Shown here piece by piece: positions 9,207-37,636 of a stretch of 64,000 bases of DNA. Source of the DNA: Liolophura sinensis (Eukaryota > Mollusca > Polyplacophora > Chitonida > Chitonidae). The DNA lies in contig NC_088301.1 in the NCBI RefSeq assembly GCF_032854445.1, forward strand, positions 28,318,402-28,382,401, written 5' to 3'. Both the position numbers and the translations under genes were made by a program. Every line of letters starts with the position of its first letter. The stretch's first letter is position 1. The notes under the pieces are model-generated. The model saw only the letters and a program-made list of their open reading frames with translations, was not told where the DNA came from and ran no database searches.

Positions 9207-12200
9207 TCATGTCTCCAATTTGTGCTCGTCTTCCACAGCCGGTGGGTGCTCCAGGACAGAGTCTATAAGACCAAACTCCTTAGCTTCTTGCGGGGACATA
9301 AAGCGATCTCTTTCAATATTTTTCTCTGAAACAAGAAGTGTAGTTGCAGCTGAAAGTTCCACTAGTACACTGCACACCACAACACATACACTTTTTACTT
9401 GATTCGGAGAGGCTACCTGAAATTTATTTATTTATTTATTTGACTGGTGTTTTACAGCGTACTCAAGAATATTTCACTTATGCGAAGGCGACAAGCATAA
9501 TGGAGGGAGGAAACCGGGCAAAGCCCGGGGGAAAACCACGACGATCCGCAGGTTGCCGGCTACCTGAAATACTCCATCTTGCACCATATTTAAAAAAAGG
9601 ACCTTTTTCCATAGGAGAGTCAAGTGATATTTGACGACTTGGTATGTTATTACTGCAAGGAATAAATGCTTTCTCGAAATATTTCTCAAAAGAAAATATA
9701 ATCCGTAAGGCGACAACTTTATGAAATGGTTAAGCAGAAAAACACAAAACCTAGTAGTTTAGCAAGGAAGACAGTAGTATGGCATGCAGCCAATCAGAAT
9801 TGAGTAGTAAATGTAAATGGACTTGGTTTGTGGTAGAATTTTCAGCTTCATCTGTCTTATTATACATTTACCACCCAAATAACATTTTATACACATACCT
9901 GCAATTAAAATCAAAAGTCAACGGAGGAAAAAAGAGTTACTGAGCCATAATCATTTCTCAACAACGAACTTGAGTATCAACAAAGGTTTCCCCTTGCTCC
10001 CCTTACCTATTGTCTCCAGAGCCTGTTTTGTATGTTTTACATACAGCCGGTTTATCTGAGACTTCAGTTTCAGGATTTCCTCAGCTTGTATTTGTATATC
10101 AGTGGCTTGTCCCTGAAAATTATATAAACCCAGTCAAATGTTGTTTAACGCAATACTTGAGATACCCGAGTTTCTCAATGTTTTTGGCATATGAAAGATC
10201 AACCTTCTTAGCTATTTTATGCATCTTTTTAATACCATTTTGGGGTAATTGGTTGGATTGGCAAATTTTAGGGCTTAACAAAAAGTATAATTTTCCCATT
10301 TATCTTGCAAACTCGCAAAAAAAAACTGAAGAACTACAGTAAGATGCTAATCTTGTTCAAGGGCGAACATTGTCATTTGAACTATTCTTGGTTAACAAGA
10401 AAGGTGATTTGATTAGGAAATATGGATTTTATTTTGCCAAAAATCTGTTGTATTACCTATTTAACATGCTATGGACGAATTGTTCCATGACTACCGAGTA
10501 CTCACAGATGCCTGTCCTGAAGGCTGATGTATCATAATCCTTGAGTTAGGTAGGGAATGCCTCATGCCTGGGCTCCCTGCACACAGAAGTAGCGAGGCCA
10601 TACTACATGCCTGTCCAACACACCACGTGGCTATAGGGGGCAGCACATACTGCATGGTGTCGTATATGCCTAACCCTGCAGTCACCGAACCACCTGTACA
10701 AATATAATATTAACAAAGATCCAATGCATTTTGTTGTGGCTAAACCTGCCAAGCACGACACTTAGGCTTTTCTGGCAAACTTACAGTTGTGGCACAAATC
10801 TTTTCAGCATGTATACTGAACAAAAAAAAATTATATTGAAAATGGGTACTACAAAGTAGTTAATATGGGCAAATACGATAATGGCCAATCGTAATTGTGG
10901 TGAACCATGTGTTGGAAAGGAGGGAACGGGTCATGCCGCATGATCTTTTGTCAAAACGCGATTTTGGACTTGTGCGAGGTCACATGACCACAATTTCATG
11001 TGGCTGAACACGTAGGTGTGAGGAGAATTTGCTGGCGATTAGAAAAAACACGCCAACAATCCTTGAGAGAGAATTGGCAACAATTGTCATGCCACACCTT
11101 ACTAGCGCTGAACGTGCAGTCAGCATGCTCCAGGATTACCAGTCTACTGCAGCTTTTGCACGTGCCATGAGATGCAGTACACGGACAATTCACAACCTCA
11201 GGACACATGTTCACTGTTAAGGGTCGCGTAACTGCCCAGACCAGACCAGACCAGACCATCATTATTACCTAACTGCTGGTGCGCTGCTCATCTTCATGCC
11301 AAACTTCCTCATGTTAGGCCGAATCTGACACAGGTGACTGTAATAAAGGTCTATACTGGGAATAGCTTCACCTGCGCTGGAACCAGAGACAATGGACTAA
11401 GGTTGTGTTTAACGGGTGTTGACGTCATGGAGTGTGCCATCGTGATCACCTGACCTCAATCCCATCAAACATAAATGAGATGCGTTTCAAAGACGACAAC
11501 CTCAGAATGTTCAACGTTGCCTTGTTGTGAACGCGAAAGCTGCAATACAGATGGCTAGTCCTTGTGAAATTGAAATGTGACCACATCATGCTCCTGTTGA
11601 CTGTGGAGGGTGCACCAAGCGCACCTTAATGTTTAATCCTGTTTTAGTGCATGCTCAATATGTCCATAAACCAAATTTGTCCAGCAGCAACACACTGTCT
11701 TCTATATGTGGGTATTTGGAACATAAAGTAATACATGTGAAGCTTCTTTTTTTGTTCAGTATACATGTAACAATGATGATAATTATCAAATGCAGATGGC
11801 ATTTGGAGAAAACACAAAATCATCGGAAAAAATGTGTTAACACTGAAACAACAATATACATAAATAAAAATCAAGTGTTTTCACAGACTGATTCTAAAAT
11901 ATTCTATCCGCTTTTTATGGACATTCATGGTCTTGAAAACCTTTCAGTTCATTTACCTTACTTGACTGAATGTTAAAACAGTATACTCGGAAAGTTTTTG
12001 CTTACATGTATTTGACAGCTGTCTCGTTTACAGAGGGGGGAAACCAGAGTGTCCAGTAATAAACCACCCGCTTCTCCTGACATAAAGCCACAGACAAAGC
12101 ACAATAACTCAGGAAAATCTCATGATTCTGAAGGCAGATGAAGTTAGACAACCAACCTGGACTGTTTATGTACATGTGAATGGGCTTCTTATTACTCTCA

Positions 12201-14243
12201 GACTGCAGAAACAACAACTGGGCAACCACCAGGCTGGATAAATCATCCGATATCTAAAACAACATGAGAGTGCCTTTTTACATGAATTTCAGTTCGTATG
12301 AAACCGTGTTCATACAGTGGGATTTGCCACTGTGACAAGTCACAGGACAAGTCAGACTATTTCATATTAAAGCTATGACAAAGCTGTGACTTCTGACAAA
12401 GCGATTCGCTGAAAGCCACAATCGCATGAAATAGCACTCTCTCATTCAAATGACAAGTTGAATATGGTAATCGGCAGCTCACGTGCCTCATGATTGAAAT
12501 CTTAGAACTGCTCACTGAGCTAAGTCCCATTCTTGGCATCACAGATTTATTAATTTGTCTGATTGGTGCCTAAGGATATGGTGAAGAATTTTATGGCTCA
12601 AAGAAAGTATAATGTTTGTGAAAAACAATTAACCAATTTTGACAAGTTACATGTTGGCCTACTGACAATCTCTCCCGCAGATGTACAGAAGACTAGACGT
12701 CTTCAATGCCCACATCACAGAATGACGCGGACTAAGAACACTTGGGCTACATTGATGTGAAATAACACCAGCTTGGCCTCAAAACGACAGAAACCATTAT
12801 GCTCTTTTCACGGAGGACTATGATGACTCTCTCTTGAGATTACAAATGAATTTAATTCATTTTCACTTATTGTGGCACCCTTCCCTGCGTAAATTCTAAC
12901 TGAAAATAAATGTTTCTTTGCCAAATTGTGTATTTCCTAAGTTAAATATGGGAAAAGGTGTTCCATCTTAATATACAGTCATACAATGCATTTTTGGCAA
13001 CTGTCCAAAGTACCAGTAATAGAGTTTACCTTTTTTGTTTTTTAAAGCTGTTTCAATCCATGTAACTGCTGCTTGAGTGAGTGAGTGAGTTAGTGTTTGG
13101 GGCTTAACGTCGTACTTAACAATTTTTCAGTCATATGACGAGGAAGGAATCCTTAAAGTGTGCCTCCTTGTTGCAGGGCGGATTTGCACCCGTCTATCTA
13201 GTGCTGCTTTACTGAGGCGCCTTACCAAAGGCAAGTAAGCTGCCCCGCCCGAGCCATAATACTGATACCACTAGTTGCACTATCCCCTTCATGCCGAACG
13301 CCAAGCGACGAAGTTACAACTTCTTTTTTTAAAGTCTTAGGGGTGACTCGACCCAGGATGGACCCTGGATCTACTACTCCCAAAGGGGACGCTCTACCGC
13401 TGCTTGAAGCTTTAAGCAAACAAATGTCAGTAACTCAGACTGGGCAAGGTGTTGGGAACTCCCCTTTTGAGGGCCTCAGAGAAAATCAACCTCTGGCTGA
13501 CTGAGTTTGCATATCCATGTATACTACCCTCTTGAAATAAAGTTATTTTTTGTTTTTATTTTTTTTATTTTTTGAAATAAAAAACTTTATTATGATTCAC
13601 ATGGGATTTAATCCCCGATGAAATTCAGCTGGTAAAAGACATATCACACGCAAAATATGTTCTTGGTACAAGGCATAAATTCACACATGTTATTTAATCC
13701 CTGATGATCTTGGCAAAAGACATATCACATACGGGATATAAATCCCCAATGATCTGGGTACAAGACATATCACACACAGGACATAAATCCCCAATCACTG
13801 TGGTAAAAGACATATCACATAAAGGATATAAATCCCCAATGATCTGGGTACAAGACATATCACACACAGGACATAAATCCCCAATCACTGTGGTAAAAGA
13901 CATATCACATAAAGGATATAAATCCCCAATGATCTGGGTACAAGACATATCACACACAGGACATAAATCCCCAATGATCTGGGTACAAGATGTATCACAC
14001 ACAGGATATAGGTCCCCAATGATCTTGGTATATACATCACACATATAACCTCCAATGAATTTGTCTACTTACAGGACCCATTACACATATAATCCTCTCT
14101 TTGAGCAGTCGTGAGTAGATGTCGTAAGCTCGCTCTCCCCTTCCCGTCTGCTCGATAACGATGGGCACCATAGGGAGCAGTCTTTTACTGGACTGATGAA
14201 AACTTCTCCTACAGGCCAACTTGGTTGTCTGATGAATTAAATG
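9207..14243 (-). CDS. CLPP: Mitochondrial ATP-dependent Clp protease proteolytic subunit (first exon not found)
   Basis: ClpP forms a double heptamer ring in the mitochondrial matrix and with ClpX degrades misfolded proteins. Five minus-strand exons join in phase: 14243-14073, 12253-12157, 10693-10506, 10112-10007 and 9325-9207 (stop), all with GT-AG ends. They encode 226 residues. Family blocks are [20 protein letters not shown], the [19 protein letters not shown] block, [15 protein letters not shown] with the nucleophile Ser, MIHQPSG with the catalytic His, [13 protein letters not shown], and [15 protein letters not shown] with the catalytic Asp. All three active-site residues are kept. The loop after the His reads GQASGQATD where the human protein, as I recall it, has GGARGQATD. 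The first exon, with start codon and most of the mitochondrial presequence, lies above 14243. An ATG at 17259 was considered, but its donor does not fit the phase. Introns hold SINEs, a Tc1 remnant and a 45-bp array. Confidence 0.95.
9421..9562 (-). repeat. SINE family A, 3' half, in CLPP last intron
   Basis: Tail (ATTT)n, conserved block and middle part up to 'cgatccgcaggttgcc'. The tRNA-like head is missing. It is oriented like the host gene. Confidence 0.9.
10890..11630 (+). mobile_element. Tc1-like DNA transposon remnant in a CLPP intron
   Basis: Reading frames give [14 protein letters not shown]...[14 protein letters not shown], like the N-terminal helix-turn-helix of Tc1 transposases. 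Further on are [14 protein letters not shown] (the RLRW..RHW..V.FSDE block) and PDLNPIK (the D-LNPIEHLWD block with the catalytic region broken). Frameshifts and stops separate these. It lies antisense to CLPP between exons 12253-12157 and 10693-10506. Terminal inverted repeats were not identified. Confidence 0.75.
13075..13410 (-). repeat. SINE family B, near full length
   Basis: A second tRNA-derived SINE family, antisense on the plus strand. It starts with (GAGT)n, then 'acaatttttcagtcatatgacg', 'ctccttgttgcag', 'gcaagtaagctgccccgcc', and ends in a tRNA-like head (ctctaccgctgcttg region; 'aggatggaccctgg' as antisense box B). Copies recur at 21360, 29465 and 37290. Confidence 0.85.
13690..14045. 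repeat. Tandem array, 45-bp unit with 90-bp higher order
   Basis: About eight units of 45 bp. Two subtypes alternate, one with 'gatctgggtacaagacat' and one with 'cactgtggtaaaagacat', giving a 90-bp period in the middle. Because 45 is divisible by three, both strands stay open for about 115 codons; this is a by-product of the repeat, not a gene. It ends about 30 bases from the donor of CLPP exon 14243-14073. Confidence 0.9.
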
Positions 14244-17348: not shown

Positions 17349-17508
17349 ATGACCACTGTACGGAGAAACACCTATGTTCTCAACAGGTAGGATTTATTTT
17401 CAGTGACATTCTGCAGGAAAAAAGATTATATACTTCAATTGTTTTTTTTTTGCTCTCTGACTGTGACGCGTTTGGCAGTGCACTGAATTCACTCTTTACG
17501 CTGCTATT

Positions 17509-17569
<61 letters not shown>

Positions 17570-20500
17570 TTAAAGTGATATGTTTCTTGTAATGTGTACG
17601 GAGTTGACCTTGTGTTGCATAAGCCCATCAGAGAGGTCACGTGTTCAAATCCAGCGCCCACTGGTTCAAGGCCCTGCGGGGATGTCTGTCTGGTACCAGG
17701 TGCCATAAAACTGATTGTCTTCATATCAGCCTAAATGAATCAGTCAGTCAATCAATTAAAACTGTTCATAATACTATCATCTGTAAAAAGGGCTAATTAT
17801 GGAAAAGTAAAATGGTGTCCGGGGTATGAAAATAGCACATAGAATCTCTATCCAACGAATTGTCCTCCACCATTGATACTTGGTGTAACAGGGGTTATTT
17901 TTCACAAATAAAGTCACATAATTATTAAATTGATCAACTGACTGGTACACCTGACCTTTATACCTGCAGGAGACCATTAACAATATCCCATCCTGGAAGT
18001 GCTTCAGGCCTGGACCGTCAGAACTTGATGAGAATCAAAGTGAACAGGATTGCCCTGATACAGGAGTTACATGTGGAGCACATTGTACAGTATCTTGTGA
18101 AGACGGGTGTGTTAAATGGAGCCGACCTAAAGCACATTGAGAGAGGAAGTATGCCGCCAGACAGAACTAGGCTTCTTCTGGACTTGCTAGCTTCAAAGGG
18201 CAAAGATACAGAGTGGTACAAACACTTCAGGTGGGCATGGAAATGATTCATGTGTGCATGTATTAGTGGCAGGTTTTGTCTTCGCATTTAAGTTCGTTTT
18301 TTGTTTTCTGCGAAACATTTAATTATGATGTGTTGGGTGGAGGGTCAGATTTCTGCTCCTGTAAAGTGGTCACAGCTATACTTATTATTACTCATTATTA
18401 TTACTCATTATTATTATCATTATGAGCCCTGGAATGAGAAAAATAAGAATAAAATCCATATTTATATGTGATTATTATCATTATACTCATTTTAGGAACT
18501 CCCTACTAAACCCTGATGCCAGCCCCATCCTATCTAAAAGGTACAGATGTCTTGTGGAGTTCCTGGATAACACTATCATCCACAGACCAACCTCACAGGG
18601 CAATCTATTCCGGGACTTCACTTCTCTGCCAGCCTCCAAACTGCCAAACCCAAGTTCCTTTCACCACTACAACACCCTGCCTCCCATACAAAGGAATGGA
18701 GATGCCGTCAACCCTGCCAAACATGAGAGGAAAGTCTCACCAGACATCCTCAAAATCCACGATGGCGATAGCAGCGATTTTCTCAGTCCTAGAGATCCAC
18801 AGGGAGATTCTAAAGATGAGGCCATGGACCATGAAGAGGAAGGCATTGTAAACCCAAGCAGTTCCCCAATAGTTAAAGGTGACATATATGTATAGCCATT
18901 CAGTATACTACGTGTGCTCGCCATAATACTTAAAGTAAAAATTAAATATGTCATCACCAAAATATCCTTAAAAATAAATAATATAGCCTGAAATATCGCC
19001 GATGTGGCCTCAAGCCATATTTATTCATTGATTTAAAGTAAAAGACAGTCTGAGGATTATTAAATTCATTAAAACAGATCACAAGTAATAAAGTCACAGC
19101 CACGTCCTGAAATAGTAAGTTCATGCATACCATATATGTCTCAGTTGATATTTTTGACCAATCATATTGCCTCACTTCTCAAACTTCCAAATAATACTAT
19201 GTACTGTTTCCAATTGGGTATTTGGGCCTAACCCATTTAGTTTTCCTGAAGCATGAGAGAGCTCAGGCCCATGGGTGATAATCCACTGACACAATGGGTA
19301 CTCCCACAACTTTCCATGATTCAGGCTTAGACATTTCTGTTTTCTTTTTTTTTTAAAAGTACTGCTCCATTCACAAGAGAAATCAGGAAGAATATTAAAA
19401 TGATATGAAAGATACCCCAAGGAACAACATGGTTCAAAAATGAATAATACTTAAAGTTTTAATACCTTCGTCTTGAGTTTGTTGTGTATTCTTGGGATGT
19501 GACTTGGTAAGAAACATGGTTCAGCGATATCGGGTCTCACAGCAAACGTCAAGACAGTACTGAAGTCTATTCTGCCCCCAGAAATGAAGAAAATGAGGCT
19601 AACACTGCCTGTTACATGCGTCTTAAATTTTGCTGCCATCCTCTTGCACTCCCTCCTCAGAGGTCATGCATTTTACACCAATCAGTGGCAAGCTTAGTCC
19701 ACTGCAGTTGACCTAGATACTTTATATTGAGTCGTATCTTACTGTTGTGTGACATAGGAACGTAAAAATTTACTGTATTATGAGGTCTATAAATTGGTAT
19801 GAAGTAACACTTTTATCACTGAAGGAAATTCCGATAGTTCGTCTTGTATATATTAAATGATAAAAGCAAATCTAACAAGCAAACAAATTTAAAATCTTAT
19901 ATTTGTAGAAATAAACAACTATAGCATGAACTGTTATTATTCAGGGAGGTAAATGTACCGGCCAGTGTGTTGCTTGACACAGACTGTCACGTTGCTTGAA
20001 AGGTCATCTCTGTCTTATATGTATATCTGCACACGGCCTACAACTAACAGCGTCGTAGAATGTTTAACCTCTGTTAACGTGATAATATTCCCCATGTGAC
20101 GATGAATCAGGCAAATATGACGTCGAGTCTGGCGTTTATTCTGGAATATCATGCAAGCTGGAATATGTGATGTCATTTTCTGCTGCATGTCAATGATGGG
20201 TGATACCAGATGTTCTAGCATAACATCACACCAGGCAAAATTGCAAACGACAGAAAACTGTTTTGGGATAAAAAAAAAATTGTTTTCATTTTGTCCTATA
20301 AAACTAACAACAGCGGTTTTAATGCCGTATTACAATCTTTTTACAGTAACTGTTTAGGAAAGCAGTTCCGATTTTTATCATTTAACCATGCTTTTAAAAC
20401 ATACAGCCCTTGACACTCGAGTAGCTCTTTGAACAGACATGCTGTAAATGTTATGTTTCACAGATTTTTGTTAGGTAATATGCTGTACTGTGGAAATCGT

Positions 20501-23500
20501 CCATCTATACTGAGGTAATTGGTCAGATGTTTAAAATCAATGCTGGTTAATCAATTAATCAATCAATTAGTTAATCATTCAGATCAAACTTTTCCCGGCA
20601 GGTTACATCCACCACTGGGTGCCAGTTCCTGCAAACTTCAGTCACTCTCTTATCCCAGAGCCTGATGACTTGTTTAGGTCTCTGGGGGATTCTCCTCTGG
20701 CTGAGGACAAAGCACAACTGCACCTGGAGCGTCAGGCTCTGAAGACAGCGCGCAGCTTGGAGCTGATGCATCAGCTGCAGCGTAAGAAGATGCTTCCTCA
20801 CAACATGGAGATTATTCAGAGCGAACCCGCCCATGACCTTTTGGCCAGCCCTGACCAATTTCACCTCTATGCCAAACACTTCACGCTGCTCCTGCATAAC
20901 CACGGTGTCAATCTTCTCCATGACCTTGCCAACTCTTTCCTCGTCGTCCTTAAGGCGCTCCAGCCCAGTGACAATATCAACAAGATAGGGGCGACAATCA
21001 AGCAAGGACTCGACCTAACTGACCTTTTTTCAGAGCTTAACCAGAGCAAGGAGGCAGAGCAAACCCTGATCTCTGTGCTTGGTTTTCTGAACAGACATCC
21101 CAGGCTTGAAACTGTGATGGCTACATATAAAGGTGTGCACTTTCGTTTGTTTGATTTGGCATTCATTCGGGTTTGCTGCTTTTAGTTTTAGTTTGGCTGT
21201 ATCATGGTGCAGGACTGTCATGCTGGCACTGGGTTGACCAGTACTTTGCCTATTTACAAGCCCGAAAAGCAACTTCATGTAGTAGACAGCAGATTTAAAA
21301 TTCTTGTGTTTGGTTGATGCAAAGTGTTTGTATAGTCTCAAATGGGATCATGGTGTGCAGCATGAAGGGGATAGCGCAACGACTGGTTGACCCGTATAAG
21401 TATAATGGCTCAGGCGGGGCGGCTTACTTGCCTTCGGTAAGTCCTCTCAGTGAAGCAGCACTAGATAAAAGAGCGGTGGAAATCCGTCCTGCAACAAGGA
21501 GGTACATTCCATGCACCCTAAGGGTTCCTTCGTCGTCATATGACTGAGAAATTGTTGAGCACGACATTAAACCCCAAACACTCACTCACTCACTCACTCA
21601 CTTTAAATTTACCAAAAGCGAAAGACGTCACCAATGTTTGGGAGGATCCTGTGTTAGTTTTACAGTATTAAACATACATGTATAATTTACATGTAGCTAA
21701 TAATTCTAATTATTAAAGGTTAATTACACAGTGTTCTCTGGATCGACACCAATTTTGTTCAGTGTTGTATGGGCTGAGACCAAAAATCCACAACCCCAGT
21801 TTTTATTTTCTCGCTGTTTTATGAATTTCAATTTTTTTTTTTTTACCCATTCCAGTCATGTACATATTTCTTCCACAGGAAAAATTGTAAGAATAGTCAC
21901 ATTTTCCACCATTTAAAAATGGTGGAAAATTTTCAAAATTTTCAAATGGCTTTTTTAAATTTTTTTATTTTCTCCTCTGACTTTGAAAAAATTAACAACA
22001 ATTGAGATTGTTGGGGCCTGTAATAATACCTATAATGGGCTTATATGTCACATTTACTGAACATATAAAAATCACGTGGCATTTTCTCCCACCAGGTTAT
22101 ATAAAGTTAATGCATCTTATGAACAAGGAATACAATTTGAGGAGTACAAGCATCGCCTACTTCCGGATCACAGAGGTGATTTGGCAGATCGAGAAGATGT
22201 CCTTTGGTCAAGATCTTGTGGAGAAAGGAGAGATGTATTTGGAGCTAAGTCACATGATGCTTGAGAGTGGAAGTGTTAATTCTGCTTACAGCTGGGCGTT
22301 CAAATCTTTACAGGTTAGTGTCGAAATTACACTTTCTTGAATCTTGGCTGTCCCTGCATTACAATATTGTGTGATAGGGTAGGTTCCTTTGTGACGCGAT
22401 ATACCTTGACTTTACAGGACAGTCCAGCAAATCATGTACCATGTGACTTGTGAAAAATGTTAGACAACTTTTGTTGACATTGATTTATTTATTTATTTAT
22501 TTGATTGGTGTTTTACGCCATACTCAAGAGTATTTCACTTATACGACAGCGGCCAGAAATATGGTGGGAGGAAACCGGGCAGAGCCCGGGGGAAACCCAC
22601 GACCATCCGCAGGTTGCTGACATACCTTTCCACGTACGGCCCGACAGGAAGCCAGCATGAGCTGGACTTGAACTCACAGCAATCGCATTGGTGAGAGACT
22701 GCTGGGTCATTACACTGCGCTAGCGCACTGACCGACTGAGCCACGGAGGCCCTCATTTGTTGTTGACATTGAACGTTTAGAATGATTGTAATGGGAGACT
22801 GGAGAAGGAGCTACACGGACAGTCCAAATGACAGTAGAACGCATCATTTTCTCCTGAGACGTTGCAGTGCATGTGTATTTTGTATCTGTTTTATTAGCAC
22901 ATATATGCCAATAATTGTGATGTAATAAAGGAAAGAACAAATGAGTCCACACCTTGGACCATCTGGATACAGGTGAGAAGGAATTATATGAGTTCCCCGT
23001 TATTAATATACTCGGTTTAAAAAAGTTACTGTGCCATGGAGTTAAGCAAAAGTTAAGAAAACATGTGAACGAAAAAGATTACACAAGTTCCATTCTTTGC
23101 AGCTTAGCTTTCATAAATACTTTAATATAAATGTATATTTTATTTACTTAGTTATTTGATCGATGTTTTATGCTATACTCAAGAATATTTCACTCATACG
23201 ACGGCGGACAGCATTATGGTTGGGAGGAAACTAAGCAGAGCTCGAGGTGGAAACCCATGACCATCCGGAGGTTGCTGGCAGACCTCCCCACGTACGGCCG
23301 CAGAGGATACCAGCATGAGCTGGACTTGAACTCACAGTGACCACGTTGATGAGAGGCTCCCGGGTCATTATGCTGCGCTAGCGCGCTAACCAACTGAGCC
23401 AAAGACCTTTGAAATTACTTTATATACTGCTGTCTAAAGTAGAGCGTATCATCCTGCCATCCCGATCAGAATTTGCCAGTGTTTATGCTATGTTTGTTAT

Positions 23501-26500
23501 GGACTTATTTATGGCAAATCCATAGTGTCTTTATGTATTGATGAGAATTATTTTAAATTTCCTGCTCAACAATTTCAGGCAAAATTTGATAGCCCCGATA
23601 TATGATTGTAGCCTACTACCAGGAATGTGCATGCACACTCAGAGTACATATAATTCATTGTAGATTTTAACATAGGCGAATCATTAGCTGCAGTAAATCA
23701 TCCGCAGACATCCAACTAGATACATTGTTGTGGAGTTTTCACGCTCCAAGAACATACACATGGAGCAGTTATATTGATGTTGCGGAATGTCTTAAAATCA
23801 TGCTCGTATCATCCGCCCTCGTTGGTACCATGCATGGTGTCATGCATGAATCCTGTTTGGTTTGTGTGCCCATCATACGCATGTAATGGAACATGATCCA
23901 ACCTTGGTGCGCCCACCATGCGCCAACCATGGAGCCATGCGCCAACTATGGAGCCATGCGTCAACCATGGAGCCATGTGCCAACCATGGAGCCATGTGCC
24001 AACCATGGAGCCATGCACCAGCCATGGAGCCATGTGCCAACCATGGAGCCATGCGTCAACCATGGAGCCATGTGCCAACCATGGAGCCATGCGTCAACCA
24101 TGGAGCCATGTGCCAACCATGAAGCAATGTGCCAACCATGGAGCCATGCGCCAGCCATGGAGCCATGCTCCAGCCATGGAGCCATGCTCCAACCATGGAG
24201 CCATGCGCCAACCATGGAGGAATGTGCCAACCATGGAGCCATGATGGGCGTATGATATTCGGCTGGAATACGGCTGTACTGTTTACGTTAAAGACTGAAA
24301 GTTCAACAAGTTAGGGTCATTTTACATTCATTTAAGCTGGTATAATGATCAAAGAAGAATATCTATTTCATGTAGCTTGAAAAATATTAATTTTGGGCCA
24401 GGAAAGTCACAGAAATTTGAAATCTGTGAAGTGTTCAAACTCCGAAAATGGCTCGCAGCACATTAAAAAAAAATTATCACAATACATCTAACATAGTCTA
24501 ATACATAGGGATTTATTTCAAATTTAATAACATTTTTGTAATATACACTGTACATGTATTTTATGAATATTTGTCTGATTTTGATGTCCTGGAAGTTATA
24601 TTAACTTTTTTTGTTTTTTTTCTGATCGATTGAACAAATTTAATATTTAAATGATTTCAGCATGTGTCTGCCGAGGAGAAGACGAGTGTAATTAATGTGT
24701 TGTGCAATGCTGTCATGGCATACTGCAGTAAGTGGAACATTAAGAGGGCTGAACAGTTAGCTGTACAGGCCGTTCAGCTATCCAGGTACAGTATCTCTTT
24801 AGGACAGACTAAGTAATCAGAAAACCACCAAGCTAAGAAACTACATTGTTTTTGTCTACAATACTTCATCAGTTGTTACATTATTATCACCTGCTGCTGA
24901 AACTGTGAAAGTATATCGATATAAGTACAGCTGGCTGGCCAGCGTTTACTGATTAATGATGCGGGAGAGCCATGTATAGAATGCATATTTTACACAGTGG
25001 ACATTTTAACTGAGAGTCACAATGGGGGAAACTTTAAATTAATCCCCAATAGGTCAGTGGTTGGAACATTGTGAAACTCTAGTAATTTTCTGACAGTGAG
25101 GGGTACACAGAAGAACATTGACCCAATGAATAATGCGAAAGTAAGGATAACAGAAGATGTCACTGTGACAGTTTTCAGGGATGTACAAAAAATATGCTCC
25201 CCCCGCCCCCACTTACAGACGGCACTGGTCTTTTTTACTTTAATCTACATTCCTACCCTAACAACTTAGAGTATGTCACGCAAAACACTGGCCAGTAGGT
25301 TTACCTCTCCGAATAATATCAGTTCATGGTATTTATTTCTACAAATGAAAGAATCTGAGTTTGTTTACTTGTTAGATTTGCTTTTATGATTTATGTAAAG
25401 GTGAACTATAGGGATTTATTTCAGCGATAAAACTGTTAGTTTGTACAATTTATAGATATTGAGCTTTGGTTTTTATATTTTTTAAATAATTGACACCCAG
25501 TCACCATGGAAAAAGAAACATTTGTTTCATGACGTTCCAGTCTGAACCCATTGGTATGATGTCGTAATGCATGTACAGTAAACGCTCACATTTCTATATC
25601 ACAAAGTAAGACACGATGTCATACATACGCAGTTGGGAAGTATCTAGGTTATCTGCAATGGCCTAAACTTGTCGTTGATTGGTCTAAAATGCATGACGTG
25701 TGCAAAGGGAGTATAAGAGAACAGCAGCAAAAAGCTGCAGGAAATATACGTTTTTTTTTGCCTCATTATCTTCATTTTTTTTTTTTTTGGTAGAATATAC
25801 TTTAACACCTTCATCATGGTGTAACCGGCCGATAACGCTGAACTTTGTTTCGTACCTCGTCAAATCCCTCAAATGCTGCTCATTCTCGGGATTTGACTCG
25901 ATACCAAGCAAGGTTCAGCGATATCGCATTATATAACAAAGACCGCTACAACAGTGTTAAACCCCTAAATAATATTACAATTCTAAAATTAAGCTTTATT
26001 TACTCTAAAATTAATGCACTCATTTTCTCTCAGGGAATACTTTGGCAGCCGGCATCCCATGTACCTGAAGGCTTTGTTGACATACTGTTACTACTCTAAT
26101 GAGTTTCGTCAGGATGATTCTGGTGTGGAAATAGCTCGGGTAAGCATGTATAGTGTGTTGATTTTGCACATCTGGTACACTGCAACTGCACACCACAGTA
26201 ACTGAAAGAGGCTGGAAATGGAGAACACTGTGTCTATAATTTAGATGTAGAGATTGGTCTCACTGCAAATGAATGGCATGAGTACATGTAGGCCATTATA
26301 AATATTTATTTATTTGACTGGTGTGTCAAGTCGTACTCAAGAATATTTCACTTATACGACGGCGGCCAGTATTATGGTGGGTGGAAACCGGGCAGAGCCT
26401 GGGGGGAAACCCACGACCATCCGCAGGTTGCTGGCAGACCTTCCCACGTACGGCCAGAGAGGTCATTACAAATAAATCTAATAGACTAAATATATAGCTA

Positions 26501-29500
26501 TAAAGCTCCACAAACACCTAAACACTGTTGCTCTGGTGGGTCCATTTCCACAAAGCTTTTGTCGACTATGTAATGGAATTAATGTACTAGTTACCTTGCG
26601 CAGTAGTGTACAGTCTTTGTGTAAGTTTGAAGTGCCAATAATTAGTTATGCCGATTAAGAGTTAGCTTTCAAATTTCGAGGACCAAATGTTTTGACAACC
26701 TGTGAGAGATTCTATTGGCCGACGTTTGGTTGAACACAAGTAATCAATACATATGTCACAAGTGCAATGTACCCACATGGTGAAAGTGAGAAGTTCTGGG
26801 AATATCAGAACACAACTAATCAATACATATGTCTCAAGTGCAGTGTGCCCACATGGAAAGAGTGAGAACTTCTGTGAATGTCAGAACACAGCTAATCAAT
26901 ACATATGTCACAAGTGCAATGTGCCCACATGGAAAGAGTGAGAAGTTTTGGGAATGTCAGAACACAACTAATCAATACATATGTCTCAAGTGCAATGTGC
27001 CCACATGGAAAGAGTGAGAACTTCTGTGAATGTCAGAACACAGCTAATCAATACATATGTCACAAATGGAATGTACCCACATGGTGAAAGTGAGAAGTTG
27101 TGGCAATGTCAAAACACAACTAATCAATACTTAAGTCACAAATGCAATGTACCCACATGGTGGAACTGAGAAGTTTTGGGAATGTCAGAACACAACTAAT
27201 CAATACTTAAGTCACAAATGCAATGTACCCACATGGTGAAAGTGAGAAGTTGTGGGAATGTCAGAACACAACTAATCAGTACATAGGTCACAAATGCAAT
27301 GTACCCACATGGTGAAAGTGAGAAGTTGTGGGAATGTCAGAACACAACTAATCAATACATATGTCACAAGTGCAATGTACCCACATGGAAAGAGTGAGAA
27401 GTTCTGGGAATGTCAGAACACAACTAATCAATACATATGTCACAAATGCAGTGTACCCACATGGTGAAATTCAGAACTTCTGGGAATGTCAGAACACAAC
27501 TAATCAATACATCTGTCACAAATGCAATGTACCCACATGGAAAGAGTGAGAAGTTCTGGGAATGTCAGAACACAACTAATCAATACATATGTCACAAGTG
27601 CAATGTACCCACATGGTGAAAGTGAGAACTTCTGGGAATGTCAGAACACAACTAATCAATACATATGTCACAAATGCAGTGTACCCACATGGTGAAATTC
27701 AGAACTTCTGGGAATGTCAGAACACAACTAATCAATACATCTGTCACAAATGCAATGTACCCACATGGAAAGAGTGAGAAGTTCTGGGAATGTCAGAACA
27801 CAACTAATCAATACATATGTCACAAGTGCAATGTACCCACATGGTGAAAGTGAGAACTTCTGGGAATGTCAGAACACAACTAATCAATACATATGTCACA
27901 AATGCAGTGTACCCACATGGTGAAATTCAGAACTTCTGGGAATGTCAGAACACAACTAATCAATACATCTGTCACAAATGCAATGTACCCACATGGAAAG
28001 AGTGAGAAGTTCTGGGAATGTCAGAACACAACTAATCAATACATATGTCACAAGTGCAATGTACCCACATGGTGAAATTCAGAACTTCTGGGAATGTCAG
28101 TTTCTACATGATCTTGCAGTTTATATAGGCCTACCAACCAGTGTTAATTCAACTCCACAAACATTTGAATCGTTTCAAAACCTCTGAATGAGGTGCGAGG
28201 GAGGTGTAAACTACTGTCACTGATCGACTACCAGTAATCCCCTATTCCCTCCAGAGGGTTTACGACTTAAAAACAGCAGCCCCTACAGGGCACCATGGTT
28301 TATAGTTATACCCAGAAATTGTCTCAGGTTATTGAAAAGGTATGGTATGTGCCATGGGGACTGCCACTTGAACATGTCCCTCTGGAATCAAGGTTTAATA
28401 GTGACATATTATTATTTTGACAGCATACCCTACAGGTGGCCAGAATAACATACGGAATAGAGACGCCCCAGCAGGCGCATGCGCATCGTGCTCTCTGCAA
28501 GGCTCTCATTGTGGCACAGAATTTCAAGGAGGAAGAATATCTAGATCATGCACAACGCGCCTTCAGCATCAGTCAGGCCTGTTACCCTCCAGCCCACCCA
28601 GCCAAGTACCTGTTCCACTTTACGCTGGGTAAGAGGGGCCTCTGGGGCCAAGGTGGTTAGCATGTGAGAAGGGTACAATGACCCAGGAGCCTCTAACCAA
28701 TGCAGTCGCTGTGAGTTCAAGTCATATGCTGGCTTCCTCTCTGGCTGTACATGGGAAGATTTGGCAGCAACCTGCGGATGGCCATAGGTTTCCCCTGGGG
28801 AAACTTAGACTTAGGTTTCAGCATTAGTCAAGCCTATTAACTACCCCGCAATGCCCCCCTCCCCAAGCCCAACCCCAAACCCTCATAAGCCCATCCAGCC
28901 ATACACTGGTTCCACTTTACAATATGTATAAAGATCTTGACTTGAGTTTTAGCATCAGCCAGGCCTGTTACCTCTCAGCCCATACACCATGCACCTTTTG
29001 TCCTTCTTTTAAGATAGCTTTTAAATGTAAAACTCAAATACTTGTGTAAAACACCAATCAAATAAACAAATAAATAGAATACTTATGACTGGAGACACCA
29101 ATACTTGGTTAATTATGCCAGGGTGTGAATTTTTTGTTGTTGTGGTTTTCAGCCTATGCCCAGTACTGGAAAGCTCTGCAGCTTCCACCCAGTGAGCAGG
29201 AGGCTACGTTGAGCTTAGCCCTCCAGGAGATCTCTCATGCACACTCACAGGTGTTACAGCATTTCGGGGACCTCTGTCTGCGGCATGCCCAGGTCCTTGC
29301 TCTAATGGCACAGATCTCCATCAAGATGAACAAGTAGGTTGGAAAGGGATGTGCCCAAAGTGTCATGATAGTTTTCAATGTTAAAGTGAATATAACATTG
29401 GACATACAATGTGGTTAAAATGAAAAACCATTAAAACTATATGTGCATACACATTTTAAATTCTGGTGAGTGAGAGAGTGCTAGAGGTTTAACATCATAA

Positions 29501-32500
29501 TTGTTTTTCAGTCATATGACGACAAAGGAGTCCTTAGACTGCTCTTTTATCTAGTGCTGCTTCACTGAGATGCCTTACCAAAGGCAAGTGAGACGCTCCG
29601 CCTGATCCATTTACTGAGACGTGTCAACCAGTCGTTGCACTATCCCCTTCATGCTGAGCGCCAAGCGAGGAAGTGACAACTTCCTCTTTTAAAGTCTTAG
29701 GTGTGGCCCAACTCTGGATTGACCACTGACCCTCTACGAACTGAGCCATCTGGGCCGGTCTTGTTATGTCCTGCCTCTTAATGAAGGGGAACATACAGCA
29801 ATTGCTCTTTTCATCTGTCTGTCCTTCCCACTCAAATTTATGTAGAGGATATCTTGGCTATTATTATTTATTTGTTTATTTTTTTGATTGGTGTTTTACG
29901 CCGTACTCAAGAATATTTCACTTATATGATGGCGGTCAGCATTATGGTGGGTGGAAACCGAGCAGAGCCCAGGGGAAACCCACGACCATCAGCAGGCTTG
30001 ACTATTATTAGGCAAAGGATTCTCAAACTCACAAGGTATGCAAAATCACCTTAAGTTGTGCATTGTCATGCTATTTTTTCACATTTTTGATCTGTTGTAG
30101 TCATATATCTTTGTGCATATTTTGAATATTATATGGCATATGTTTGTTAAACTCACACAAAGTGTGCAAGATGACCTGAAGTGATGCATTGTCAAATTAT
30201 TTTTTCACATTTTGATTTTTTAAATTGTTGTCTGCACTTGCCCATGTGTCAAAATATATTTGCATCTGGGTATGACATAGCATACTTGTGCATGTAGGAT
30301 ACTGTTAGTTACATGGTTACTCAGGGATAGGACACACAAATATACGGTGTCAGTAATCCTGATAATGGGCTCAGCATTAGCTATATGGTTACTCAGTGAT
30401 AGGACATGCAAATATACAGTGTCAGTAATCCTCATAATGGGCTTGGCCTCAGTTACAAGGTTACTCAATGATAGGACACACAAATATACAGTGTCAGTAA
30501 TCCTCATAATGGGCTCAGCCTTAGCTACAAGGTTACTCAGAGATAAGACATGCAAATATATGGTGTCAGTAATCCTGATAATGGGCTCAGCATTAGCTAT
30601 ATGGTTACTCAGAAATAAGACATGGAAATATACGGTGTCAGTAATCCTCATAATGAGCTCAGCATCAGTTACATGGTTACTCAGGGATAAGACATGCAAA
30701 TATACGGTGTCAGTAATCCTCATAATGAGCTCAGCATCAGTTACATGGTTACTCAGGGATAAGACATGGAAATATACGGTGTCAGTAATCCTCATAATGA
30801 GCTCAGCATCAGTTACATGGTTACTCAGGGATAGGACATGCAAATATACAGTGTCAGTAATCCTCATAATGAGCTCAGCATCAGTTACATGGTTACTCAG
30901 GGATAAGACATGCAAATATACGGTGTCAGTAATCCTCATAATGAGCTCAGCATCAGTTACATGGTTACTCAGGGATAGGACATGCAAATATACGGTGTCA
31001 GTAATCCTCATAATGAGCTCAGCATCAGTTACATGGTTACTCAGGGATAGGACATGCAAATATACAGTGTCAGTAATCCTCATAATGAGCTCAGCATCAG
31101 TTACATGGTTACTCAGGGATAAGACATGCAAATATACGGTGTCAGTAATCCTCATAATGAGCTCAGCATCAGTTACATGGTTACTCAGGGATAGGACATG
31201 CAAATATACAGTGTCAGTAATCCTCATAATGAGCTCAGCATCAGTTACATGGTTACTCAGAGAGAAGACATGCAAATATACGGTGTCAATAATCCTCATA
31301 TTGAGCTCAGCATCAGTTACATGGTTACTCAGAAATAAGACATGCAAATATACAGTGTCAGTAATCCTCATAATGAGCTCAGCATCAGTTACATGGTTAC
31401 TCAGAGAGAAGACATGCAAATATACGGTGTCAGTAATCCTCATAATGAGCTCAGCATCAGTTACATGGTTACTCAGGGATAGGACACACACAAACATGGT
31501 GTCAATAATCCTCATATTGAGCTCAGCATCAGTTACATGGTTACTCAGGGATAAGACATGCAAATATACAGTGTCAGTAATCCTCATAATGAGCTCAGCA
31601 TCAGTTACATGGTTACTCAGGGATAAGACATGGAAATATACGGTGTCAGTAATCCTCATAATGAGCTCAGCATCAGTTACATGGTTACTCAGAGAGAAGA
31701 CATGCAAATATACGGTGTCAATAATCCTCATATTGAGCTCAGCATCAGTTACATCGTTACTCAGAAATAAGACATGGAAATATACGGTGTCAGTAATCCT
31801 CATAATGAGCTCAGCATCAGTTACATGGTTACTCGGGGATAGGACACGCACAAACACGGTGTCAATAATCCTCATATTGAGCTCAGCGTCAGTTACATGG
31901 TTACTCAGAAATAAGACATGGAAATATACGGTGTCAGTAATCCTCATAATGAGCTCAGCATCAGTTACATGGTTACTCGGGGATAGGACACGCACAAACA
32001 CGGTGTCAATAATCCTCATATTGAGCTCAGCATCAGTTACATGGTTACTCAGGGATAAGACATGGAAATATACGGTGTCAATAATCCTCATGATGGGCTC
32101 AGCATCAGTTACATGGTTGCTCAGTGATAGGACATGCAAATATGTCCTTGCACTCTCACTTGACTTTCAACATTTATGAATTATACATTCAGTCATATTG
32201 TAACAGTCCTGCGCAGTTGATCATATATGGAGTACCTTATTGCCAGTTAATAGGCAGTTAGCAAGAGATTTTAGAAACCACTTTTCACAAGATCTTTCCT
32301 GGGTTGTAGAGCCATTGATTTTATATGAGAAGTTAAGAAAAAATTTATTTACAAAGTTTTATGATAAAAGGCCCTGGGTTCAAGCCAAAGTTGTGTCATT
32401 TCTTAAGACTTGATTTTGGCTGTTTTAGTTCCACTTCACATGGGGCTGTAACAAAACGGATCAAGTATGGGTTTTTCTAGTGTGGGCATGTAACCTCAGG

Positions 32501-34795
32501 AGTAATATCTTCTGATATCATGGCATTTCTGTCAATTCTACATTGAAATACAATGCCGACAATATGGTTGTGTGATTATGGAAATGGTATCTACACTTTT
32601 TCTCTCACTTTTTAGAGAATGGCATCTGTTCCATGTGCACGAGCCATATTTTTGACCCATGCACATTAAGGCATGTTATAAACTTGAACCCTCCTTTATT
32701 TTTTATTTCGTTGTTGTTTAACGCCATGGTAAAGAGTTTTTCACTTATGCGATGACCGTCAGGTTTATAAGAAAACTGCAGTGCTCGGTGCGAAGGAGGT
32801 ACTTTTAGCAAGTGACTGATGAACTTTCCCATATACACACCATACTGGTAGAAGACAAGTGGTCATCAACGAATATTAGACTTTGCAAACAGCCACACAA
32901 GCTTTATTGACTACTTGTTGTCACCATGGCCCCATTGACAGCAAGAGTGGTGGAATTCCCTGTTCAAGACTGGGTTTGAACCTGAAACCAGCTCCCTCCA
33001 GCACAGTTCAAATTAAGGAAGCCATGACGATGTTATGATTTGGGCTGAGCATGGCCCCATGTCGTAGTCGTAACTGACATTAGCTTTACGATTCATTTTT
33101 CTTTTGCAGATTTAAGACAGCGGAGTCACTGCTGGTTACCAGTGACAAAATCCTGAGCCTGTGTTTGCCATCTCATAGTAACTACTTGCTGGTTACCCAG
33201 GCAACACTGGCTATGTTTTATGCTATGGATCCAGTTGGAAAGGTGGAAGATGCCAAAATTCTTCTTCAAAAGGTCATCAAAGAATTAGGTAAGAAAATCA
33301 ACCCAGAATTTACTCAGCTATCTTGATATTTTTATGCTCAGTGTTGAAGAACTATTGGATGGTGAATGGCTTTTGGGTTAGAGAGTGCAAGCCAGTGTCC
33401 TGTCATACATTTGGTATAAATTCTATGGCTTGGCATTAAGACTAAGGGGATAAGCTTAGTACAGCTCAGCATGACATCAAATTGCTGTGACTGGGTGGAT
33501 ATCATGGATGGTTGGTTTTTGGCATGTCAGTCCACTCAGATAGCGTTGTAATACTCTGTGATCTAGCTGATTGCATGCTAATGCAGCAGAATTACTCAGG
33601 AGCCTCTCGCCAATGAGTCCAGCTCATGCTGGACTTTCTCTCCAGTTGTACATGGGAAGGTCTTCCAGAAACCTGTTAATGGTTGTGTTCCTCTGTCCAG
33701 TTTCCTTCCACCATAATGCTGGTTACCATTGAATAAAGTGAGATATTCATGAGTATGGCATAAAATACCAATGAAATATATTTATTTATTTATTTGATTG
33801 GTGTTTTATGCCGTACTCAAGAATATTTCACTTATACAACAGCGGCCAGCATTATGGTGGGAGGAAACCCATGACAGAGCCCAGGGGAAACCCATGACCA
33901 TCCGCAGGTTGCTGAAAGACATTCCCACATACGGCCGGAGATGAAGCCAGCATGAGCTGGACTTGAACTCGAATCGACCGCATTGGTTAGAGACTCCTGG
34001 GTCATTATGATGCGCTGGTGCGCTAACCAACTGAGCCACCGCGCCCCCACCCCCCCAGTGAAATATATAAATCAATAAATAATATGTTTATAGGTCCACC
34101 ATGGTGTGAGATTACCATAAAAATGTTAAAAATGTTAAAAATGAAAAACTAAGGCTGTCCGTACCACAGATAAGGTAACCCCCAAAGTCTGTGTTTTCAA
34201 GGCTATTGTTTAATGCTGGAGTTAAATAACTAGCTGGAGGAGGGGTTTACTGGGTTATTCGTCTTACTCAATGTCATTACATTTCACTGTAAATCTCAGC
34301 AACAAACATATAGGCCTGGTCTGGAATTCCAGGTTTTGTTTCTTTGGACCAAATGTATGATTTAAAAGCTGGAAGAGATGAAAGTGCCAGAAATAGTATG
34401 AGCAAGTCAAATCCAGAAGTCATCTGAATTATTTCCACCCACAACTGTCGATAAAATTGTATTCAATGATGCATCTGTTCGGTCAACCTCACAAACTTTG
34501 AACAATCTGTTTTTCAGACTCTCCTGGTGTACTGGTTAACTGGGTCGTATTTGCATTTGATCATCTAGTTGCTCTCCACCAATCAGCTGGTGAGCAAAAG
34601 GAAGCTGCCATAATAGAGGCTCAGAAGGAGGAATGGGTGGCCAACAATCCTCCACACACTTCGAAGATCACCCTCCCAGTACTAATGGAACCTCCCAGGC
34701 CATATGCAGAATTCCTGGCCGATTTTAACATTTGGCAGAAACGGGTAGACAGGTGGAAAGAAGCAAAAGAAAGCGAAGAGTGTTGCCATTTGTGA
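17349..34795 (+). CDS. CARD-APPBP2-like protein (N-terminal CARD plus APPBP2-type TPR region)
   Basis: Eleven coding exons, all GT-AG and all in phase: 17349-17386, 17970-18230, 18496-18878, 20602-21132, 22096-22313, 24661-24785, 26034-26139, 28424-28628, 29153-29333, 33110-33288, 34518-34795. They give 834 residues. Residues about 28-106 read as a CARD: six-helix spacing, with HIVQYLVKTGVL, then DLKHIERG and RLLLDLLASKG, close in pattern to the RAIDD CARD. Residues about 106-227 form a polar, acidic linker. From about 260 on the protein follows APPBP2: a 'KHFTLLLHNHGVNLL' helix, AYSWAFKSLQ, the KRAEQLAVQAVQLSR TPR, and REYFGSRHPMYLKALLTY (APPBP2 has FGSKHPKY). APPBP2 is about 585 residues, binds APP and kinesin-linked cargo, and is a CUL2 ubiquitin-ligase receptor; whether this paralogue does either is unknown. 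The CARD suggests innate immune or cell-death signalling (inference). No frameshift was seen. Exon 1 is the weakest part of the model. Confidence 0.85.
17512..17568. repeat. (TA)n microsatellite, about 28 units
   Basis: An uninterrupted TA run in intron 1 of the CARD-APPBP2 gene. It can form cruciform or hairpin structures and is probably length-variable. Confidence 0.98.
17590..17762 (+). repeat. SINE-like tRNA-derived repeat, family D
   Basis: A box B-like 'cacgtgttcaaatccagcg' is followed by 'ggtgccataaaactgattg' and a 'cagtcagtcaatcaatt' simple tail. Only one copy of this type was noticed, so the SINE call rests on the tRNA-like motif and the tail. Confidence 0.5.
19440..20115. repeat. 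Dispersed repeat E copy in intron 3
   Basis: Same orientation as the 8275-8790 copy: 'ggtcatgcattttacacca', 'gacctagatac', 'cttttatcactgaaggaaat', 'tcagggaggtaaatgtacc', 'tatgtatatctgcacacgg'. It also extends left to 'ggttcagcgatatcg', shared with the copy at 25250-25960. Confidence 0.7.
21360..21604 (+). repeat. SINE family B, sense, 5' truncated
   Basis: From 'gcatgaaggggatagcgcaac' through 'gcggcttacttgccttcgg', 'gcaacaaggaggtacattcc' and 'gaaattgttgagcacgacat' to a (CACT)n tail. It lies in intron 4 of the CARD-APPBP2 gene. Confidence 0.85.
21901..21930. repeat. Perfect 14-bp inverted repeat (hairpin)
   Basis: ATTTTCCACCATTT, two bases, then AAATGGTGGAAAAT. It lies in intron 4. It could be a structured RNA element or the remnant of a palindromic transposon end; no function is evident. 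Confidence 0.85.
22482..22753 (-). repeat. SINE family A, full length
   Basis: Complete copy in intron 5 of the CARD-APPBP2 gene, antisense to it, ending in 'gactgagccacggaggccc'. Boxes A and B of the tRNA-like head are well kept. Confidence 0.95.
23142..23406 (-). repeat. SINE family A, full length
   Basis: A second complete copy in intron 5, same orientation as the one at 22482. More diverged ('gatcgatgttttatgctatac'), head 'gcgctaaccaactgagcca' intact. Confidence 0.95.
23915..24245. repeat. Tandem array, 19-bp unit centred on CCATGG
   Basis: About 17 copies of 'gccatgcgccaaccatgga'-type units. Most contain the palindrome CCATGG. Because three units make 57 bases, open frames appear on both strands; these are not genes. 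It lies in intron 5. Confidence 0.95.
25250..25960. repeat. Dispersed repeat E copy in intron 6
   Basis: Orientation of the 7630-8190 arm. Shared blocks: 'gagtttgtttacttgttaga', 'ggcctaaacttgtcgttgat', 'aaggttcagcgatatcg'. Contains a T-rich stretch near 25750-25790. Confidence 0.7.
26302..26462 (-). repeat. SINE family A, 3' half
   Basis: Tail, conserved block and middle to 'cgtacggccagagagg'; head absent. Intron 7 of the CARD-APPBP2 gene. Confidence 0.9.
26740..28103. repeat. Tandem array, 76-bp unit with 228-bp higher order
   Basis: About 18 units, each with 'aatcaatacatatgtcaca', 'tgcaatgtacccacatgg' and 'gggaatgtcagaacacaact'. From about 27361 to 28075 the array is three nearly identical 228-bp blocks (3 x 76), showing recent block duplication. 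Units are not a multiple of three, so the short repeated open frames are artefacts. It lies in intron 7. Confidence 0.95.
28638..28803 (+). repeat. SINE family A, 5' half; tail-like piece at 29029-29078
   Basis: Head and middle of a sense copy (gagttcaagtcatatgctgg ... gtttcccctgggg). The SINE breaks off and two decayed copies of exon 8 follow. A tail-like stretch (gtgtaaaacaccaatcaaat) appears about 230 bases later, so the SINE may have been split. Confidence 0.75.
28815..29000 (+). pseudogene. Two decayed partial copies of exon 8 of the CARD-APPBP2 gene
   Basis: Exon 8 ends with 'ttcagcatcagtcaggcctg' and 'tgttccactttacgctg'. Just downstream in intron 8, 28815-28925 has 'tttcagcattagtcaagcct' and 'tggttccactttacaata', and 28945-29000 has 'ttttagcatcagccaggcct' and 'gttacctctcagccca'. 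Frame and donor are lost. These are tandem remnants of the exon's 3' part. Confidence 0.75.
29465..29759 (-). repeat. SINE family B
   Basis: Antisense copy in intron 9: 'gtgagtgagagagtg', 'tttttcagtcatatgacgac', 'gcaagtgagacgctccgcc', and head 'gaactgagccatctgggccg'. Part of the middle is deleted. Confidence 0.85.
29865..29997 (-). repeat. SINE family A, 3' half
   Basis: Antisense copy in intron 9, from the T-rich tail to 'cgaccatcagcagg'. Confidence 0.9.
30300..32146. repeat. Tandem array, 72-bp unit, open on both strands
   Basis: About 25 units of 72 bp: 'gtgtcagtaatcctcataat', 'gagctcagcatcagttacat', 'ggttactcagggataggaca', then 'tgcaaatatac'. The unit is 24 codons and stop-free in one frame on each strand, giving open frames of 610 (+) and 639 (-) codons. 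A later variant (caataatcctcatattgagc with acacgcacaaaca) alternates with the main type to give a 144-bp period near the end. It lies in intron 9, and I see no splice framework or start that would make it coding. Confidence 0.95.
32695..33025 (-). repeat. SINE family C, near full length
   Basis: Antisense copy of a third tRNA-derived type: 'tttatttcgttgttgtttaa', 'tttttcacttatgcgatgac', 'ggtagaagacaagtggtcat', and an antisense box B-like 'actgggtttgaacctg'. Related copy at 36668-36915; a head-only piece lies at 37990-38215. Confidence 0.65.
33590..33776 (+). repeat. SINE family A, sense member of an inverted pair
   Basis: From 'gcctctcgccaatgagtcca' to 'aataccaatgaaatat'. It lacks box A. The next copy starts two bases later in the opposite orientation. 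Confidence 0.88.
33778..34050 (-). repeat. SINE family A, full length, antisense member of an inverted pair
   Basis: Complete copy ending 'accaactgagccaccgcgcccc'. With the neighbour it makes a tail-to-tail inverted repeat in intron 10 of the CARD-APPBP2 gene. Confidence 0.95.
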
Positions 34796-37289: not shown

Positions 37290-37636
37290 CTTGAGTGAGA
37301 GAGTCAGTCCTTGGGTGTTTAATGTGGTAATTGACAATTTTTCAGTCATATAACGACAAAGGGAAGGAGTCCTTAGAGTGCAGGTAATGTGCCTCCTTGT
37401 TGCAGGACGAATTTCCACCGCTCTTTTATTTAGTGCCGCTTCTTTGAGACGACTTACCGAAGACAAGTAAGGTGCCCCGCCATTACACTGAGTCAACCAG
37501 TCGATGCACCATCCGCCAGGTGGGGAAGTTTCAACTTCCTCTATTAACGGCTTTGGTGTGACCCGACCCAGGATTGACCCAGGGTCTACCGCCTCCGAAG
37601 CGGACGCTCTACCAACTGTGCTATCGGGGCCGGTCG
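37290..37636 (-). repeat. SINE family B, full length
   Basis: The best family B copy: '(gag)n' tail, 'caatttttcagtcatataac', 'aggtaatgtgcctccttgtt', and a well-kept tRNA-like head in antisense (accaactgtgctatcggggc; box B antisense 'gattgacccagggtc'). Confidence 0.92.

Follow-up and report, generated by a model that had tools for sequence, protein, structure and literature searches.

The CARD-APPBP2 locus

The stretch of DNA analysed here, called the window below, comprises 64,000 nucleotides of the chiton Liolophura sinensis (C7:28318402-28382401; the genome has 609 Mb in 632 contigs), and it carries on its plus strand a gene model that joins a CARD to a body resembling the TPR protein APPBP2. 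The rebuilt model runs from window position 17349 to 34795 in 11 exons, has 2505 nt including the stop codon, and would encode a protein of 834 amino acids, referred to as the window protein. All introns are of the GT-AG type, the phases agree and there are no internal stops, so the 11-exon model that an earlier note had drawn from the sequence, with consistent splice phases and without stops, was recovered in full. The edges of exons 8 and 10 were placed using the APPBP2 alignment as a guide. Our interpretation, to which we assign a probability of about 0.62, is that the product is a two-module CARD adaptor in which an APPBP2-derived solenoid serves as a binding arm and not as a ligase receptor.

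The exons, and the short continuation of the frame of exon 3, are as follows (window positions).

17349..17386, plus strand: exon 1, with the start codon and 12 full codons, phase 2 out, donor CAG/GTAGGA
17970..18230, plus strand: exon 2, residues 13-99, bulk of the CARD, matched by the Pfam CARD model and by a chiton-CARD model
18496..18878, plus strand: exon 3, residues 100-227, end of the CARD followed by a polar, acidic linker of ~100 amino acids
18879..18895, plus strand: read-through of the exon 3 frame, ~5 codons past the donor, then a stop
20602..21132, plus strand: exon 4, residues 228-404, N-terminal part of the APPBP2-like body
22096..22313, plus strand: exon 5, APPBP2-like body
24661..24785, plus strand: exon 6, APPBP2-like body, next intron (phase 2) shared with APPBP2
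26034..26139, plus strand: exon 7, APPBP2-like body, next intron (phase 0) shared with APPBP2
28424..28628, plus strand: exon 8, APPBP2-like body
29153..29333, plus strand: exon 9, APPBP2-like body
33110..33288, plus strand: exon 10, APPBP2-like body
34518..34795, plus strand: exon 11, C-terminus and stop codon

Splice sites were ranked with a position weight matrix trained on 13 introns of the ordinary chiton APPBP2 gene and 7 introns of the body, and with this matrix the donor of exon 1 ranked third among 1052 GT sites. A stop lies in frame 33 nt 5′ of the start of exon 1. Because every exon is open, a pseudogene reading was rejected.

The two modules

On sequence comparison, the predicted product of exons 2 and 3 is a genuine CARD. 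With the two exons joined, the Pfam model CARD (PF00619) matched residues 35-107 at 33.9 bits (E 3.1e-8, gathering cut-off 23.9), which confirms the CARD-like N-terminus claimed in the earlier note at about residues 28-106. A genome-wide scan with the Pfam model gave 20 matches at E≤0.001, and exon 2 was 18th of these at 32.7 bits (C7:28336435-28336605, window 18034-18204). The other genome matches numbered 19, and all but C8:57972744 (18 in total) went into a hidden Markov model (HMM). This chiton-CARD HMM gave the window CARD 49.4 bits, whereas no shuffle among 1000 exceeded 8.4 bits; the eight best matches listed included neither the body nor chiton APPBP2. The score had been 45.2 bits before exon 3 was added, and only 6 of 1000 shuffled tails gave an equal rise. 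Thus, because exon 3 lifts the CARD score, the join of exon 2 to exon 3 is supported. An NCBIfam search with exons 1-3 gave no match. The CARD spans two exons, and an AlphaFold2 (AF2) model of exon 2 only, made without an alignment, reached a predicted local distance difference test score (pLDDT) of 55, with helices at 16-22, 26-32, 35-45, 50-58, 63-76 and 82-85.

The earlier note had likened this CARD to that of RAIDD, and here the results were mixed. In favour, a BLAST comparison within the small set of 18 other chiton CARDs gave a CARD on C1 (L005) as the best match (32% identity, E 1e-10), with a CARD on C4 (L003) also among the best matches; in a genome search with exons 1-3, no match outside the locus was better than this C1 CARD (E 1.7e-4), and all matches there were of CARD type or weak. 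The C1 CARD is followed by a Death domain exon, the two open frames lying at C1:33317932-33318755, and no Death match at E≤0.001 was present near the C4 CARD. RAIDD was the best Protein Data Bank (PDB) match of both the C1 CARD (E 2.2e-11) and the C4 CARD (E 4.9e-11). On the other side, the top PDB matches of the window CARD itself were weak, namely NOD1 at E 0.0096 and RAIDD at E 0.017, and a CARD tree gave it no supported place. This tree held the window CARD and 17 of the 18 other CARDs fetched (L016 was dropped as the shortest), and the C1 CARD was nearest by path. Hence we take assignment of the window CARD to the RAIDD type as a lead suggested by sequence, not as proof. RAIDD (CRADD) resembles the chiton fusion in having an N-terminal CARD, of the nearest type found, and in being built of two modules without a detected enzyme domain. 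Its second module is a Death domain, whereas that of the fusion is a TPR solenoid, and no Death domain match was found in the 834 amino acids (Pfam, E≤1).

From sequence and intron comparison, the predicted product of exons 4-11 is an old and fast-evolving APPBP2 paralog, in keeping with the APPBP2-like TPR body described in the earlier note. A PDB search with the whole protein returned at E≤0.1 three APPBP2 sequences and one CARD chain (NOD1), and the body matched the human APPBP2 chain of PDB entry 8jal over residues 290-768 at E 4.5e-23. The chiton also has an ordinary APPBP2 gene at C10:4625676-4639989, with 14 exons and 576 amino acids, which matches the human chain at E 1.4e-245; the single CARD match on C10 lies 4.5 Mb from it. 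Between the body and this chiton APPBP2, BLASTP aligned residues 248-801 with 22% identity (124/575, E 5e-20), covering almost the whole of chiton APPBP2, and the phmmer alignment started at residue 269. Moreover, two of the seven body introns, those between exons 6 and 7 (phase 2) and between exons 7 and 8 (phase 0), agree exactly in place and phase with APPBP2 introns in all five alignments, of which three are MAFFT variants in agreement with each other; under a uniform model with 13 introns in 1728 positions, the chance of at least two exact introns is ∼0.001. A third shared intron (exon 8/9 against APPBP2 11/12, both phase 1) is not claimed, because it was exact in none of the five alignments and only by eye on the human alignment. 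Human and chiton APPBP2 share identical residues in 362 columns, and the body has kept 96 of these.

In exon-wise searches of the genome, the only match to the body outside the locus was C8:16640574, at E 0.095 and with stops, in a search that may miss a distant paralog. Because the exon-wise searches failed to link even the window locus with the APPBP2 gene on C10, such a paralog could escape them. The kinship of these two loci is visible on the spliced proteins only.

Weighing the alternatives

In humans, APPBP2 serves CUL2 as a C-degron receptor (PMC7458402, PMC11053023), and the body belongs to the APPBP2 family, so that the window protein might be a CUL2 substrate receptor equipped with a CARD, which would either mark CARD-bound proteins for degradation or bring caspases to the ligase. 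CRL2 receptors in general possess a VHL box, in which a BC box of the consensus (S,T,P)LXXX(C,S,A)XXX-phi is followed by a Cul2 box of the consensus phi-PXX-phi-XXX-phi (PMC4878042). Human APPBP2 has TLYNTAISAV and LPENIQFDV, and chiton APPBP2 has SLFNTAVTAI and LPENVQFDI at the same spacing. A motif search for which these two proteins were the positive controls found in the window protein no N-terminal BC box and, throughout its length, no ordered pair of BC and Cul2 boxes; the matches obtained were BC-like at residues 689 and 699 and Cul2-like at residue 236. Shuffling produced such a pair in 0.9% of cases for chiton APPBP2 and in 8.75% for the window protein. Where human and chiton APPBP2 agree, the body retains 3 of 9 columns across the BC-box region and 2 of 13 across that of the Cul2 box. 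Because the VHL box is the basis of a CUL2 receptor reading and the search for it gave this result, we consider that reading quite improbable, and the earlier proposal of a CARD tied to a CUL2 substrate receptor is not upheld, the box pair being absent here and present in human and chiton APPBP2. Since the ligase-docking motifs of APPBP2 are absent, the body looks more like a signalling scaffold than a part of a ligase. The absence of motifs would be compatible with ligase docking through another surface.

A number of other results count against a single CARD-APPBP2 adaptor, and we consider them together with the alternatives that they favour. The fusion is predicted from the genomic sequence of one species. 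Foldseek with the low-confidence model of exon 2 gave 15 matches, all at E 2.2 or worse and none a CARD, the unsupported position in the CARD tree points the same way, and an AF2 model of exon 4 made without an alignment was likewise poor, with a pLDDT of 40. In the body, no TPR model reached the Pfam cut-off, the best being TPR_10 at 26.2 bits against a cut-off of 27.5, while chiton APPBP2 has TPR_10 and TPR_12 above the cut-offs; five of the seven body introns lie off APPBP2 positions; the C10 APPBP2 gene was not among the matches listed when the genome was searched exon-wise with the body, nor was the window locus among those listed in the exon-wise search with human APPBP2. The subthreshold TPR models, the missing link between the two loci and the 22% identity would all suit a generic TPR array that merely resembles APPBP2. 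However, the match to APPBP2 is long and co-linear and includes two exact introns, and APPBP2 alone among TPR chains was found in the PDB at E≤0.1, with kinesin light chain among the proteins that did not appear; we regard a generic array as very improbable.

The join of exon 3 to exon 4 decides whether the locus holds one gene or two neighbouring ones, that is, a CARD gene of exons 1-3, closed by its own stop or by an exon not seen here, followed by an APPBP2-like gene with its start in intron 3 or at Met283; alternatively, one locus with alternative promoters would give both products. The exon 3 frame meets a stop ∼5 codons beyond the donor, eight A(A/T)TAAA hexamers lie within intron 3, and the exon 3 acceptor is weak (168th of 1098 AG sites). 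Of the 49 alternative stretches from an ATG to a phase-1 GT listed in intron 3, at least one is invalid because it extends beyond the exon 4 acceptor. Another, MFHRFLL at 20453-20474, is a possible alternative first exon with a donor of 7.4 bits; the exon 3 donor has 7.1 bits and ranks 27th of 1052 GT sites, a rank that can be read against the join. The first methionine in exon 4 is residue 283, a start there would give only a slightly shorter body, and the human APPBP2 alignment begins past it, at residue 290. Nevertheless, a start at Met283 would lose the part aligned with chiton APPBP2 from residue 248 by BLAST and 269 by phmmer, and hexamers and short ATG-GT stretches are presumably frequent in A+T-rich introns. 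Exon 4 opens with an acceptor, and there is an in-frame stop at 20568-20570 with no ATG between this stop and the acceptor; hence a complete body calls for a coding exon upstream of it whose donor is in phase 1. This is the phase in which exon 3 ends, and the rank of the exon 3 donor speaks in this respect for the join. The exon 3 linker scores as coding, with 0.06 bits per codon in frame and negative values in the two other frames, as compared with a maximum of 0.05 over 2782 overlapping intron windows; this score was trained on 1182 codons with a background from the same introns, and exon 2 itself scored 0.05. The first 20 residues of exon 4 precede the BLAST match, which sets in at APPBP2 residue 11, and MAFFT places the exon 4 start GYIHHWV beside ACALEWV of the APPBP2 start, a short match. 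On these splice-site, phase and coding data, exons 1-11 probably form a single fused gene, and an arrangement of two genes or of alternative promoters appears unlikely, though it carries real weight. If the exon 3 donor were unused and the intron retained, a CARD-only protein would possibly result. Such a product recalls the CARD-only regulators. RNA-seq data for this chiton (digestive gland, foot, gill, gonad and heart) are deposited under PRJNA973839 and gene models at figshare, both named in PMC11068029.

Proposed role, relatives and neighbouring sequences

As a two-module adaptor, the window protein would work through an N-terminal CARD that acts as a signalling plug, a linker whose composition suggests flexibility, and a C-terminal body that homology and two shared introns identify as an anciently duplicated APPBP2 helical solenoid, without elongin/CUL2 docking motifs. 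The solenoid may bind a partner peptide or complex and thereby bring several molecules of the window protein together; their CARDs, now clustered, could nucleate homotypic assembly with an initiator caspase, a chiton RAIDD-like adaptor or a CARD protein of the NF-kB branch, and the protein would thus be a scaffold for signalling in cell death or immunity. Candidate partner families are present in the genome, where exon-wise searches gave 29 matches each for Death and for Peptidase_C14 (caspase-type), and 20 for CARD, counting the one described here. Such a gene probably arose when CARD exons were joined 5′ of an APPBP2 duplicate and replaced its start. An improbable alternative is a rewired degron sensor, in which the paralog kept a tail-binding solenoid, lost the CUL2 link and gained a CARD, and in which exposed C-terminal tails, for example those of cleaved or mislocalised proteins, would trigger caspase or NF-kB signalling; if this were true, signalling would have replaced degradation.

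Death-fold domains mounted on repeat scaffolds recur in animal immunity, and combinations of death-fold or TIR domains with TPR scaffolds are well known. Relatives of Apaf-1 may carry TPR repeats in the place of WD40 (PMC2246300), and NLR-like proteins of placozoans combine CARD or Death-like domains with WD40 or TPR repeats (PMC6321704). Like the chiton fusion, both families pair a CARD or a related adaptor domain with a TPR array, which in them occupies the WD40/LRR position, but they have a nucleotide-binding domain and none was found in the fusion (Pfam, E≤1). The oyster TIR-TPR proteins (PMC4346834) and the fusions of TRADD-N with TTC28-like TPR (PMC8195603) likewise join a signalling adaptor domain to TPR, but with another adaptor domain and another TPR family. 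APPBP2 itself (PAT1) shares with the fusion the long co-linear body, 22% identity and two identical introns, and differs from it in having the BC and Cul2 boxes and no CARD nearby, whereas the fusion has a CARD and lacks the box pair. No CARD-APPBP2 protein was seen in the available portions of surveys of amphioxus (PMC2575513) and Aplysia (PMC9334734), nor was such a fusion found elsewhere in the literature searched, which included few subscription journals; it may stand unnamed in public annotations. Within this scope, what would be new is a CARD on an APPBP2-derived solenoid without ligase motifs. If real, this fusion would show a receptor of protein quality control converted into an adaptor of the death-fold type, and would make it possible to test clearly whether the recognition of degrons can lead into CARD signalling.

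Two observations concern the ordinary APPBP2 gene. At C10:4634774-4636733 (L002:774-2733), ∼21 copies of the 3′ end of exon 9, splice donor included, form a 92-bp minisatellite that extends into the next intron, and an exon edge within a tandem array might yield alternative APPBP2 mini-exons. A partial second copy of exon 1 (VTAIVTYYSKHRKELKALPENVQFDIYYK) lies ∼0.9 kb past the first, at about L001:2124-2210, with the Cul2 box present and the start of the BC box absent.

Introns of the window gene contain large minisatellites, with a 76-bp unit at 26732-28100 and a 72-bp unit at 30307-32143. Open frames of 632 (plus strand) and 648 (minus strand) codons at window positions 30220-32179 are the translated 72-bp minisatellite of intron 9 and are not likely to be genes. 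Upstream, at about 10490-12253 on the minus strand, lie two exons of a ClpP protease gene (Pfam CLP_protease; frames starting at 12253 and 10709), with a possible third piece at 9347 recognised by eye only. Downstream, an exon of cytochrome c oxidase subunit 6C (Pfam COX6C) is present at about 48570 on the minus strand, and a tRNA match (Rfam, 38.3 bits) lies at 37559-37630, also on the minus strand.

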